Positions 49,022-58,007 of a stretch of 64,000 bases of DNA are shown here, in pieces. The first letter of the stretch is position 1. The number at the start of each line of letters is the position of its first letter. Made by a program: the position numbers and the translations under genes. The notes under the pieces were generated by a model. That model searched no databases. It was not told the DNA's origin and worked only from the letters and a program-made list of their open reading frames with translations. This DNA is from Turneriella parva DSM 21527 (GTDB taxonomy: Bacteria; Spirochaetota; Leptospiria; Turneriellales; Turneriellaceae), in contig NC_018020.1 of NCBI RefSeq assembly GCF_000266885.1, forward strand, positions 620,001 through 684,000, in the 5' to 3' direction.

Positions 49022-49357
49022 TCAGACCGGATATTTTGTCTTAAACTCGTCTTCGGTGATAAAAGAAAAGAAGTTCATTAAGCCGGCGACCTTGAAGATC
49101 TTTTCGATCATCGGTTTAATGCCGGTCAGATGCACCGTGCCGCTCTGTGCCTGCACCGCGTTCACGATCTTGATCAGTACGCCAATACCGCTCGAGTCGA
49201 TATAGCTCACATCATTCAGCTGCAGAATGACTTTTTCGCCGGTTTTCAGGGGAATCGAGTCTGTCTGACTCTTGAGCTCGACAGAAGTGTACATATCGAG
49301 GCTGCCCTTGAGGTAGACGACATAATATCCCTGTTTTTCGTGCAGCTTTATATCCAT
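49022..49357 (-). CDS. STAS-domain anti-sigma factor antagonist
   Basis: 111 aa, one STAS domain. The phosphorylation loop is YIDSSGIGVLI with Ser55/Ser56 after Asp54, and the C-terminal half includes VHLTGIKPMIEKIFKVAGL. Such SpoIIAA-like proteins release a sigma factor or act in a partner-switching pathway when dephosphorylated by SpoIIE-type phosphatases such as the one at 28277-29974. No anti-sigma kinase gene is adjacent. Divergent from the 49440 gene. Confidence 0.92.
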   Translation of the reverse strand: MDIKLHEKQGYYVVYLKGSLDMYTSVELKSQTDSIPLKTGEKVILQLNDVSYIDSSGIGVLIKIVNAVQAQSGTVHLTGIKPMIEKIFKVAGLMNFFSFITEDEFKTKYPV

Positions 49358-54281: not shown

Positions 54282-54665
54282 ATGGATTCTGCTGAAATTG
54301 AAAGCCTGAAGAAAGAAAACGCGTCGCTGCGCCAGACCTTACGCGGCTACGAGACCGTGGTGAGGCTGAACGACGAAGAAATCAGCCAGCTCGAGCAAAT
54401 GGTTGCGATGTACGAGCGTATTATCGAATACAGCCGTGTCGAGCTGCTGCAGGTGCGCGAAGAGCAAAGGGCGACCGAAAAACTCTCGGGTCTTACAGTT
54501 GAAGAACTCAAGAGTGCCAAACAGACGGTCGAAGCGTCTGAAAATGTCTCTCGTATGAGCCGTGATGAACTGATCGATGCGATGACGCGCATCAAAGAAC
54601 TCGAAATGGAGAATAAGCGCCTCAAAGAACAGCGTCTCGCTGCCGGCGAAAAACTGAACTCGTAA
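54282..54665 (+). CDS. coiled-coil protein
   Basis: 127 aa, almost entirely heptad-patterned helix (IESLKKENASLRQTL, RIKELEMENKRLKEQ), highly charged, no signal peptide or membrane segment. Its stop codon directly abuts the start of the TPR gene, so the two are coupled. It may be a scaffold or oligomerisation partner for the TPR/Mrr-like protein. Function unknown. Confidence 0.8.
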   Translation: MDSAEIESLKKENASLRQTLRGYETVVRLNDEEISQLEQMVAMYERIIEYSRVELLQVREEQRATEKLSGLTVEELKSAKQTVEASENVSRMSRDELIDAMTRIKELEMENKRLKEQRLAAGEKLNS

Positions 54666-56024
54666 ATGGATGACCTGATCAGCGTATTACTGCTCGGTGG
54701 TATCATCGGGGTGGTCGGCATTTTCGCGTACTATGTCGTGCGCACCTACCTTGTGCCCAAGCGCGTCGAAGAGCTGGCAGAAATGATCAAGCAGGGGCAC
54801 ACAGGCCCTGCGATCAGCAAGCTCACGAAAATGATCGAAGAAAACGAACGCGACCCCTATTTGCATTTTCTGCTCGGCGAAGCCTATTCGAAACAAAACG
54901 ATTTGCAGGGCGCTGCCAATGAATACCGACAGACGATCAAAATTGGTAAATGGGGAGCTCAGGTCAAAGAAGCGGCGGTGCGATCTCGCCTTGCGAAGAT
55001 CTACATGACGAACCGCAACTACGACGAGGCAAAAAAAGAGTACCTAATTCTCACGCGCCTCGACGGTACCAACAACGAAAACTTTTACCAGGTGGGTGTA
55101 CTGTTCGAAACCGCCGGGCTCAACGACAAGGCGCTGCCCTATTTCAAACAATCGGCGAAACTCAAACCGACACACGCCGATTCGTTTCATCACATCGGCA
55201 TTATCGAATATAATTTCGGCAACGTGAACGACGCCAAAATGGCGCTCACCGAAGCCGTCAAACTGAACGGCAACCTGCACGGAGCGCACTATTACCTCGG
55301 CATGTGCCTCAAGAACCAGAAAGATTATGACTGGGCGGTGAAAGAATTCGAACTCGCGAGCAAAGACGAAAATTTTAAGGGACGCGCGCTACTCGCCAAA
55401 GGCCTCTGCCTCATGGAAAAAGGCCAGTTACCCACTGCTCAGGTAGAACTCGAAAAGGGATTACTGACTGCACCCAAAGGTTCAGAACTCGAGCTGAATC
55501 TTCGCTATGCAATCGGCGCCTGCGCCGAGCGTAAGCGTGACTTTCACACGGCGATCGCCAACTGGGAAAGAATCACCGATGTGAACCCAAAGTTTCGCGA
55601 TGTCGCTGAAAAGCTCAAGGCCTACGAAGAATTCAGAACCGACGATACAATCAAAGACTTTATGATCGCGCCGCCGGGTAAGTTTGAAGCGCAGACACGA
55701 GCCATCGTCGAAGCGATGACGTTTAAGGTCGTCGACCTCAATGTCGTCGACGATTCAGAAGTTCATATTCTCGCAACTGAAGAAGAAGGCAATCGCCGAA
55801 ACAGCAAGAAGTCAAACCGTCTGATCTATATTCTGCGCACGACCGACCTCGTGCCTGAACGCACGGTGCGGCAGCTGCACGAAGAGATGCGCAGTAAAGG
55901 CGCGAATAAAGGCGCGTGTATCAGCACTTCAGATTTCTCGAGCCAGGCGCATGCATTCATTCAATCGCGCCCGATTGAACTCTATGACCGCAAGCAGCTG
56001 ATTGCCCTGCTGCGCGCCATTTAA
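54666..56024 (+). CDS. membrane-anchored TPR protein with degenerate Mrr-like C-terminal domain
   Basis: 452 aa. An N-terminal membrane segment (~5-25) and TPR repeats (~50-310) resemble the layout of LapB/YciM. The C-terminal ~110 residues follow the Mrr restriction-endonuclease fold: a strand, VHILATE, LIYILRTTD, VRQLHEEMRSKGANKGACIST, SDFSSQAHAF and IELYDRKQL. The PD-(D/E)xK residues are missing: the acidic DIIA position reads EVHILA and the QxK position reads YILRT. So it is probably a binding module, not a nuclease. Confidence 0.8.
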   Translation: MDDLISVLLLGGIIGVVGIFAYYVVRTYLVPKRVEELAEMIKQGHTGPAISKLTKMIEENERDPYLHFLLGEAYSKQNDLQGAANEYRQTIKIGKWGAQVKEAAVRSRLAKIYMTNRNYDEAKKEYLILTRLDGTNNENFYQVGVLFETAGLNDKALPYFKQSAKLKPTHADSFHHIGIIEYNFGNVNDAKMALTEAVKLNGNLHGAHYYLGMCLKNQKDYDWAVKEFELASKDENFKGRALLAKGLCLMEKGQLPTAQVELEKGLLTAPKGSELELNLRYAIGACAERKRDFHTAIANWERITDVNPKFRDVAEKLKAYEEFRTDDTIKDFMIAPPGKFEAQTRAIVEAMTFKVVDLNVVDDSEVHILATEEEGNRRNSKKSNRLIYILRTTDLVPERTVRQLHEEMRSKGANKGACISTSDFSSQAHAFIQSRPIELYDRKQLIALLRAI

Positions 56025-56026
56025 CC

Positions 56027-57457
56027 GTGGCAGGTGCGTCACAAGAATTTGCCTCGCTGCTCAGAGGTATTTCAACTAGTGAACTTGAAGCATTGAAGGC
56101 CTTGCCTTGGCAGGCCGAGAAGATTGCAGGTGAAGCGGTCGCTGCAAAAATCGAACCCGGGCTCGGCGTCACCGCTCTTGCGGGCGCGCTGCCTTTTCTT
56201 GAAACGCGAATCGATCGCCGCGAATATGCCGGTTACCAGTGGCTCAAGAGCGAACAGCTCGCGGGCTTTCTCGCGCTGAATCGCGCTCTGCTTCGGTGCT
56301 ACCTGCAGGCTGCACGCGCCGAACGCCTCACGCTCGTCGGCAATCTGTCACAGGCCCGCCTCTATCAGGTATCGACTGAAACCGTCGGCATGTCTGCTGC
56401 ATCGTTTGCGGTATTTCTCGCGCAGCGCGTCAAAGCGACTGGTGCAGGCGAAACGCTGCTCGTCGATCTCGATACCACAAACCAATTTGTGTTTCCCCTG
56501 CTGCGCCTGCCAGAAGCACCGCCGGTTCTCACTGAACAGCTACAGAAACCGTCATCTTTCAAAGCCGACCTGCAGAGATGCATTCTGAAACTGGCGAATG
56601 GCCTCAGCTACCTCAATATGCAGGCGACGAGCCTCAGGCCTTTCAGCGACGCAGAACTCGCGCGCATCGTCGGCACGCTCGATGCAGATTTCGATAGCGT
56701 CATCATCTATTCAGGTCGGCTGAAGAGCGCCTGGCTGTCGGCAAATGCCGAACAGAATTATGCCATTACCGATGGTTCATACAAATCAGAACTCGCAGCC
56801 CTCATTCGCCACTCAGGGGGATTGCACACCGTACTCATGGCGCCCGGCCGCGACAAATACCAGCCGCACCTCAACGAAGAATTTGCACGCCTGCCCGACC
56901 CGACTCTGTGGCAAGAACCTGCGCCCCACCTGAATGTTCTGCAAGAAACCATTGAACAGTTTGTGTCTGCGCGCAGGCTGACGCTCGGCGCACGCCGCAC
57001 CTCGCCAATGACTCTCGACATTCTCTGGGGAATCAACCTTTATTTTCACTACGCCCGTGAAGATGAGACCGCAGCCGATAAGATTTTGAACAAGCTGCAA
57101 AAGAAAATGAGCGCGCGTTATCCTGGTTCATCATTTTTCAGCCAGCGCTCTGCTCTCAAGGCAATATCGATTCTGCCGCAGCGCGCCGCCACCACGCTGC
57201 TTTCAGTCAATTCAAACCCGATGATCGTCAGCCTGCCGCGCTCAGCCGAGCTGCGCGCTCTGGCGATATTTCCCGCGGGGGTAATACCGGCCGTGAACCA
57301 TGGGCTGACGCGCATCGCCGCGGCTGGCGCCGCAACTGCCGACGACCTGATGACACTTGCGGCCCGCAGTGGTTTCAACCAGGTGTTGAAATCTGCACGC
57401 ATCACGCTGCAAAAGCCGAACGCACTCGCCGCCGTGCTCGAGCAGGTGCAGCCATGA
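56027..57457 (+). CDS. ParA/MinD-like protein lacking a Walker A lysine
   Basis: 476 aa from a GTG 2 nt after the TPR gene. The segment TETVGMSAASFAVFLAQRV followed by LLVDLDTTNQFVFPLL copies the P-loop-helix-DLD layout of ParA/MinD ATPases, and FDSVIIYSG matches the later DxxIIDxP strand. The GKGGxGKT lysines and glycines are replaced, so ATP hydrolysis is doubtful. The C-terminal half is helical with no recognised domain. Inference: a pseudo-ATPase built on the SIMIBI fold, perhaps a partner of the TPR protein. Overlaps the lipoprotein start by 4 bp. Confidence 0.65.
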   Translation: MAGASQEFASLLRGISTSELEALKALPWQAEKIAGEAVAAKIEPGLGVTALAGALPFLETRIDRREYAGYQWLKSEQLAGFLALNRALLRCYLQAARAERLTLVGNLSQARLYQVSTETVGMSAASFAVFLAQRVKATGAGETLLVDLDTTNQFVFPLLRLPEAPPVLTEQLQKPSSFKADLQRCILKLANGLSYLNMQATSLRPFSDAELARIVGTLDADFDSVIIYSGRLKSAWLSANAEQNYAITDGSYKSELAALIRHSGGLHTVLMAPGRDKYQPHLNEEFARLPDPTLWQEPAPHLNVLQETIEQFVSARRLTLGARRTSPMTLDILWGINLYFHYAREDETAADKILNKLQKKMSARYPGSSFFSQRSALKAISILPQRAATTLLSVNSNPMIVSLPRSAELRALAIFPAGVIPAVNHGLTRIAAAGAATADDLMTLAARSGFNQVLKSARITLQKPNALAAVLEQVQP

Positions 57458-57981
57458 AATTCAAGCCCGTTCTGGTATGCCTGGCTCTTTCGGCGTGTTC
57501 GGGCCGCGTGCCGACATTCAGCCTGCAGGGTTATTATTTCATCGGCGCAAGCGACGAAAAGAACGCCGTTGCTGAAAATGGCAGGTTGATGCAGGCCGTA
57601 AGCGAAATTGTGCTCGCCATTTATGAGAAGCAGCCCGCAAAACTTATGCAATATGTGCATGCGCAAGAAGGCGCCATAATTGACGCCAAGGCATTCGTGA
57701 CTCAGGCCCAGGTCGGTCAGGCGCTCGAAGATGAAAACTCGATGCTCTACCGCGTACTGTGGGACGACGCGTATTGGAAAAAGACCTCGCCAGAAGAGAC
57801 AATCAGAAGTTACCGCACCCTCTTCGGCAAGGCCGGCGAAATTCGCGTAGGGCTGTTCTATTATTCGGCGACCGAGTGCGAAGCGCGGCTCGATTTTAAG
57901 GGCCGCCCCCCAATGGGCATCATGGCAAACCTTGTGCTGCGAAAACGCGGCGAACGCTGGTACATGATGAATTTTTTCTAA
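57454..57981 (+). CDS. lipoprotein of unknown function
   Basis: 175 aa. The signal ends in LALSAC (lipobox) at about residue 15. The mature part is mixed alpha/beta with a helical middle (EIVLAIYEKQPAKLMQYVH) and ends in ERWYMMNFF, resembling NTF2-like or SnoaL-type small domains in Leptospira lipoproteins. Fourth gene of the coiled-coil/TPR/ParA-like cluster; its start overlaps the preceding stop by 4 bp. Family not recognised with confidence. Confidence 0.75.
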   Translation: MKFKPVLVCLALSACSGRVPTFSLQGYYFIGASDEKNAVAENGRLMQAVSEIVLAIYEKQPAKLMQYVHAQEGAIIDAKAFVTQAQVGQALEDENSMLYRVLWDDAYWKKTSPEETIRSYRTLFGKAGEIRVGLFYYSATECEARLDFKGRPPMGIMANLVLRKRGERWYMMNFF

Positions 57982-58007
57982 CGGTTTCCTGAAAAAGGAA
58001 ACCGTTA
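57979..58007 (+). terminator. 12-bp hairpin at the end of the lipoprotein gene
   Basis: TAACGGTTTCCT (57979-57990) and its complement (57996-58007) enclose GAAAA; the stop codon TAA is the first part of the left arm. It immediately precedes the larger branched element. Confidence 0.7.

Follow-up and report, generated by a model that had tools for sequence, protein, structure and literature searches.

Former enzymes in a conserved spirochaete gene cluster of Turneriella parva, possibly a membrane-anchored scaffold

Why does a bacterium keep, side by side, genes for proteins whose enzyme folds have lost their catalytic residues? The question is raised by four contiguous genes in a 64,000-nt stretch of the Turneriella parva DSM 21527 genome (4,409,302 bases in two contigs), namely NC_018020.1, 620,001-684,000 of the forward strand; this whole stretch is called the window below, and feature positions are given in it. 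The core genes recur together in spirochaete families that are distant from one another and, to judge from their sequences, probably encode an undescribed complex rather than being genes in decay. We regard as evenly poised the proposal that the locus specifies a membrane-anchored, cytoplasm-facing scaffold or adaptor complex of former enzymes. The four open reading frames (ORFs) are:

54282..54665, + strand: ORF1, coiled-coil protein of 127 aa (cluster c2)
54666..56024, + strand: ORF2, membrane-anchored TPR protein of 452 aa with a C-terminal pseudo-Mrr domain (Pfam TPRs and Mrr_cat)
56027..57457, + strand: ORF3, degenerate cyclic-nucleotide-binding-like (CNB) + ParA + patatin pseudoenzyme of 476 aa, GTG start (profile chain A4-A5-A2-A3 and PDB matches of distant orthologues)
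57454..57981, + strand: ORF4, lipoprotein of 175 aa (cluster c3; lipobox LSAC)

The junctions are 0 nt between ORF1 and ORF2, 2 nt between ORF2 and ORF3, and a 4-bp overlap between ORF3 and ORF4, so the coordinates bear out the contiguous, tightly joined arrangement described in a first-pass annotation of this DNA.

The nuclease-like part of the cluster lies in ORF2. Residues 337-449 matched the curated Pfam hidden Markov model Mrr_cat (PF04471) at 51.1 bits (cut-off 21, E 1.8e-13), and the protein also matched the NACHT-associated inactive REase family NA-iREase1 (PF22722) at 30.4 bits (cut-off 27). The fold family is therefore that of the Mrr restriction domain, whereas the PD-(D/E)xK motif of an active enzyme is missing: the D is replaced by His367 and (Q/E)xK by YIL (388-390). 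Among about 42 aligned orthologous TPR-Mrr domains, none kept both the catalytic D and K. Unlike the two Pfam families, this clade is fused to membrane-anchored TPRs and has no restriction or NACHT context. A PDB search with the Mrr profile returned weak RPB5 matches only, and the AlphaFold2 (AF2) model of ORF2 contained a confident TPR solenoid (residues ~31-310) with a predicted local distance difference test (pLDDT) of 70-93, the Mrr part being not folded. The non-catalytic region is:

55623..56021, + strand: pseudo-Mrr region of ORF2, aa 320-452, PD-(D/E)xK residues lost (Pfam match, alignment and sister-species identity)

A second TPR-Mrr clade (n=12), present as a second gene at some of the same loci, keeps GVD and has VRR in place of QxK. 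Its members (GVDFLA...VWVRRW) lie a few genes downstream of the first gene, near STAS and large hydrolase-like genes (L073-L079, L135-L140).

ORF2 has a single N-terminal transmembrane helix (residues 4-26), and an N-terminal hydrophobic helix was found in 64 of 66 TPR-Mrr proteins. In positive-inside analysis, positive charges followed the helix in 61 of the 64 homologues; the orientation is therefore predicted to be N-out/C-in, with the TPR and Mrr parts in the cytoplasm and about 3 residues outside. Since neither ORF1 nor ORF3 carries an evident export signal, the whole core is predicted to sit on the cytoplasmic side of the membrane. Hence ORF2 is a membrane TPR protein, as had been proposed, and the idea of a machine reaching across the inner membrane does not fit this topology or the absence of the lipoprotein from most relatives of the cluster.

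The selection acting on these genes was estimated by comparing T. parva with a sister-species genome (G202). ORF2 was 97% identical, with a ratio of nonsynonymous to synonymous substitution rates (dN/dS) of 0.011, and its last 132 aa, the pseudo-Mrr part, were identical at 132/132 positions (dS ~1.2, dN/dS 0.005). ORF1 was 91% identical (dN/dS 0.021, dS near saturation) and the first 252 aa of ORF3 81% (dN/dS 0.083); the rest of ORF3 and ORF4 were 72% and 81% identical, respectively, with dS saturated. Where measurable, dN/dS thus ranged from 0.01 to 0.08, values that are approximate because dS is near or beyond saturation. These sequence comparisons indicate that the operon genes are under purifying selection and exclude decay. 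No stretch is more conserved than the pseudo-Mrr domain, which is what a binding surface would show and is in keeping with the earlier suggestion that folds stripped of catalysis had been retained.

The gene order was surveyed in other spirochaetes, whose families and genera carry anonymous codes (f, g); the names Turneriellales, Leptospiraceae and Borrelia-like were assigned from kinship. A single query detected TPR-pseudo-Mrr relatives in at least 217 of the 296 Spirochaetota genomes, mostly without ORF3; when 15 genomes were searched again with a profile, 13 gave a match. In 43 of the 44 distant genomes an ORF3 orthologue lay directly downstream of TPR-pseudo-Mrr, on the same strand and with a match gap of 2-92 nt; the exception is an incomplete assembly for which no TPR-Mrr match was listed. 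The same arrangement was present at every Turneriellales locus examined. A contig scan with ORF3 as query returned one close relative only, and scans of viral contigs and plasmids found no relatives. The order is thus conserved far beyond chance, across distant spirochaete families, and the presence of ORF3 nearly always beside TPR-Mrr, with TPR-Mrr mostly lacking ORF3, is the pattern of a dependent partner.

By itself ORF3 had no significant Pfam or NCBIfam match. Its make-up was resolved through profiles of Turneriella genus ORF3 (A4), of other Turneriellales (A5) and of seven distant orthologues (A2), which were compared domain by domain with hhalign, using 30 column-shuffled controls per comparison; the shuffled maximum is given in brackets after each score. 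One distant orthologue matched Pfam cNMP_binding at its N-terminus (27.8 bits, cut-off 27.5) and Patatin at its C-terminus, below the cut-off. Against the PDB, A2 matched in order CNB domains (5h5o), the Borrelia ParA-family protein PF-32 (3k9g, E 2e-7) and the patatin PlpD (5fqu); A5 gave no PDB matches. The CNB and patatin parts of A2 scored 80 (19) and 97 (21), respectively, against those of intact CNB-patatin paralogues. For the Turneriella protein, the CNB of A4 scored 45 (15) against A5 and 33 (17) against A2, and its ParA part 77 (18) and 42 (21). The C-terminus of A4 scored 41 (21.5) against the patatin region of A5, which in turn scored 35 (16) against intact patatin. The domains are:

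56027..56340, + strand: degenerate CNB-like domain, ORF3 ~aa 1-105 (hhalign)
56327..56880, + strand: ParA/MinD-like domain, ORF3 ~aa 100-285, P-loop lost, hhVD.D A'-type motif kept (alignment, hhalign)
56882..57454, + strand: pseudo-patatin remnant, ORF3 aa ~286-476 (hhalign via the A5 intermediate)

On this profile evidence, ORF3 of Turneriella is an eroded protein with CNB, ParA and patatin domains, which brings the dead enzyme folds in the cluster to at least three. It shares with NTE/PNPLA6-like CNB-patatin phospholipases the order of CNB then patatin, in Turneriella as a remnant detected via A5. It differs from them in lacking the catalytic Asp and the oxyanion-hole glycines and in having a ParA-like middle domain. 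The patatin catalytic Asp was lost in all 37 distant ORF3 orthologues; the nucleophile position was variable, with Ser in some of them, and GxSxG with DG[GA] occurred in no ORF3 orthologue. Neither the Ser-Asp dyad nor the oxyanion GGGxR is preserved. With the ParA/MinD (SIMIBI) ATPases, distant ORF3 shares the PF-32 match and an hhhD A'-type motif. In contrast to those ATPases, the domain is embedded between CNB and patatin and has no conserved signature Lys, even among copies with GK[ST]; the deviant Walker A KGGxGK[ST] is not preserved. The P-loop GK[ST] itself is absent from Turneriella ORF3; of the 37 distant ORFs (two genes counted twice), 29 retain it and 8 lack it. Because most distant relatives have it intact, the ATPase loss is lineage-specific.

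Both the Mrr and the ParA relationships proposed in the first-pass annotation are therefore supported by sequence profiles, including an Mrr-like domain without PD-(D/E)xK residues and a ParA/MinD-like protein without Walker A lysines; the three-domain make-up of the latter had been missed. Its view that both catalytic folds were stripped of activity and kept their shape holds insofar as both are present, have lost their residues and are strongly conserved, with the correction that the P-loop loss is confined to some lineages.

ORF1 orthologues immediately precede TPR-Mrr in most Turneriellales, as they do in the distant families f12, f31, f35, f41 and f46, and not in families f2, f3 and f23. 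They were seen only where ORF3 is present, none being found at the examined TPR-Mrr loci without it. ORF4 bears a lipobox, as the lipoprotein label requires, had no significant Pfam or NCBIfam match, and has orthologues in 9 of 18 genomes of the order; an ORF4-like lipoprotein gene follows the TPR-Mrr gene in one Leptospiraceae genome (L174:5087-7184) that lacks ORF1 and ORF3 there. By its distribution the lipoprotein is mainly an order-level addition, and the unit of four genes first described reduces to a core of ORF1-ORF2-ORF3. At the end of the operon one further feature was read from the sequence:

57980..58006, + strand: inverted repeat AACGGTTTCC-n7-GGAAACCGTT, a possible terminator without a T-tract

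Other genes accompany TPR-Mrr elsewhere. In family f6 (L069, L070, L071), the gene after it is of GAF-SpoIIE phosphatase type (Pfam on L069) and the one after that is STAS-like, a possible partner-switching context; in L070 and L071 a large glycoside-hydrolase-like protein also follows. A 111-aa ORF in the window at 49022-49357 (- strand) clusters with STAS-domain proteins that are encoded beside TPR-Mrr in other families. A calcineurin-like phosphoesterase-type gene (cluster c13; Pfam on L089) comes after TPR-Mrr in f11, f22 and similar families (L085, L086, L089, L090, L091). In Borrelia-like genomes of 0.9-1.0 Mb, the homologue has an SLT transglycosylase on one side and an M23/LysM peptidase on the other (L166:7114-8484, L167:6511-7926); from its gene order we take it to be probably BB0261.

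All parts of the cluster belong, in degenerate form, to known families. No description of the assembly as such was found in Pfam, NCBIfam, PADLOC or the open-access papers searched, in agreement with the first reading of the locus as unrecognised, and searches of those papers for BB0261, spirochaete TPR/Mrr and CNB-bearing patatin pseudoenzymes gave nothing on this locus.

From the dependence of ORF3 on TPR-Mrr, the constraint on a non-catalytic domain and the presence of a TPR hub, we infer a scaffold or adaptor complex. A single N-terminal helix would anchor ORF2 in the inner membrane, and the TPR solenoid together with pseudo-Mrr would form a cytoplasmic docking platform. ORF3 would be the dedicated partner of ORF2, and ORF1 may be a small coiled-coil subunit that bridges or oligomerises. 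The ancestral ORF3 was probably a nucleotide-switched (ParA GK[ST]), membrane-proximal adaptor, whose patatin fold would bind a lipid or a protein without hydrolysing it; Turneriella would have lost the switch too, leaving a constitutive structural adaptor. Within the order, ORF4 would add an envelope lipoprotein.

Several points count against this proposal. The C-terminus of A4 did not match the patatin of A2 directly (11, shuffled maximum 18), and the fold of ORF3 was not predicted by AF2 (two sequences, pLDDT 36), which leaves a two-step profile chain as the basis for the pseudo-patatin of Turneriella. The dN/dS values that speak for constraint are approximate, as stated above. Equating the ORF3 middle domain with that of NTE was also tried and found unsupported, the A2 ParA part scoring 15 (18) against the intact CNB-patatin middle; the two middle domains are not detectably homologous.

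DNA binding is established for Mrr folds, and both DNA and membranes are bound by ParA proteins. The locus might accordingly be a DNA-membrane tether, in which pseudo-Mrr binds DNA uncut and its ParA-like partner places the assembly on the nucleoid, anchoring the chromosome to the inner membrane. A platform predicted to face the cytoplasm and the GK[ST] kept in most distant ORFs would suit such a role. We nevertheless consider it unlikely: the CNB and patatin parts are left without a role, the canonical ParA signature lysine is absent from ORF3 and from most copies elsewhere, and no ParB-like gene or parS-like repeat was seen, although no search was aimed at either.

The resemblance of ORF3 to NTE/PNPLA6-like enzymes raises a different explanation, that it is a dead paralogue which, through competition for substrate or partner, controls the live enzyme or the turnover of membrane lipids. 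T. parva does encode an intact NTE-like CNB-patatin paralogue of 620 aa (C1:2049373-2051229; L143:502-2364) with GGGGAR, a GTSMG nucleophile elbow and DGG, and the two families have homologous CNB and patatin domains in matching order. However, this paralogue is unlinked to the locus, and no full-length CNB-patatin is listed for the distant ORF3 genomes or for the same-family genera g2-g5, so regulation cannot be the general function. We therefore rate this explanation as quite unlikely.

The spirochaete flagellar collar is rich in TPR proteins, and uncharacterised TPR proteins occur phylum-wide. A part in the motor or collar could also be read from the Borrelia-like homologue near a lytic transglycosylase gene, given that the peptidoglycan lytic enzyme BB0259 is required for the flagellum to assemble (PMC8517470). 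However, FlcA, FlcB, FlcC and BB0236 (PMC8609358) map by gene order to Borrelia loci other than that of TPR-Mrr. The collar proteins FlcA, FlcB and BB0236 are spirochaete TPR proteins as well, yet they are periplasmic and have no Mrr, and FlcB and FlcC carry signal peptides, whereas the TPR part here is predicted to be cytoplasmic, with C-in orientation in 61 of 64 homologues. The NCBIfam FlcA match was confined to the TPRs (29.5 against a cut-off of 300), and no flagellar gene was seen among the annotated neighbourhoods, making a flagellar role very unlikely.

An anti-phage defence or mobile-element module is highly improbable. Defence systems often contain Mrr, NA-iREase-like and patatin domains, and the operon gave weak PADLOC PDC-S02 matches, mostly on the Mrr-like part, without matching a known system across its length; set against this are a vertical, phylum-wide distribution with conserved order, the lack of relatives in viral contigs or plasmids, and the loss of all catalytic residues under very strong purifying selection. 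That the genes are decaying pseudogenes, as lost catalytic residues in several domains might suggest, is refuted by four open frames, low dN/dS, a dead Mrr domain that is the best conserved part, and an order conserved across families.

For the scaffold or adaptor reading, a broader formulation is tentative. The locus might represent an inner-membrane machine found only in spirochaetes, ancestral or nearly so in several families of the phylum, in which a TPR-pseudo-nuclease hub is paired with a CNB-ParA-pseudophospholipase partner, and from which lineages successively removed catalysis, first the phospholipase and then the ATPase, while the complex was kept; it would be a pseudoenzyme scaffold of a new class, serving to organise the envelope or the nucleoid. 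If so, a conserved, uncharacterised membrane complex would be named across spirochaetes, and the family would offer a graded series from enzyme to scaffold: intact CNB-patatin, dead patatin with an intact P-loop, and both dead. Relatives of TPR-pseudo-Mrr exist in small genomes resembling those of Borrelia and Treponema pallidum, and automatic labels of 'restriction endonuclease' on such genes would be wrong about activity.

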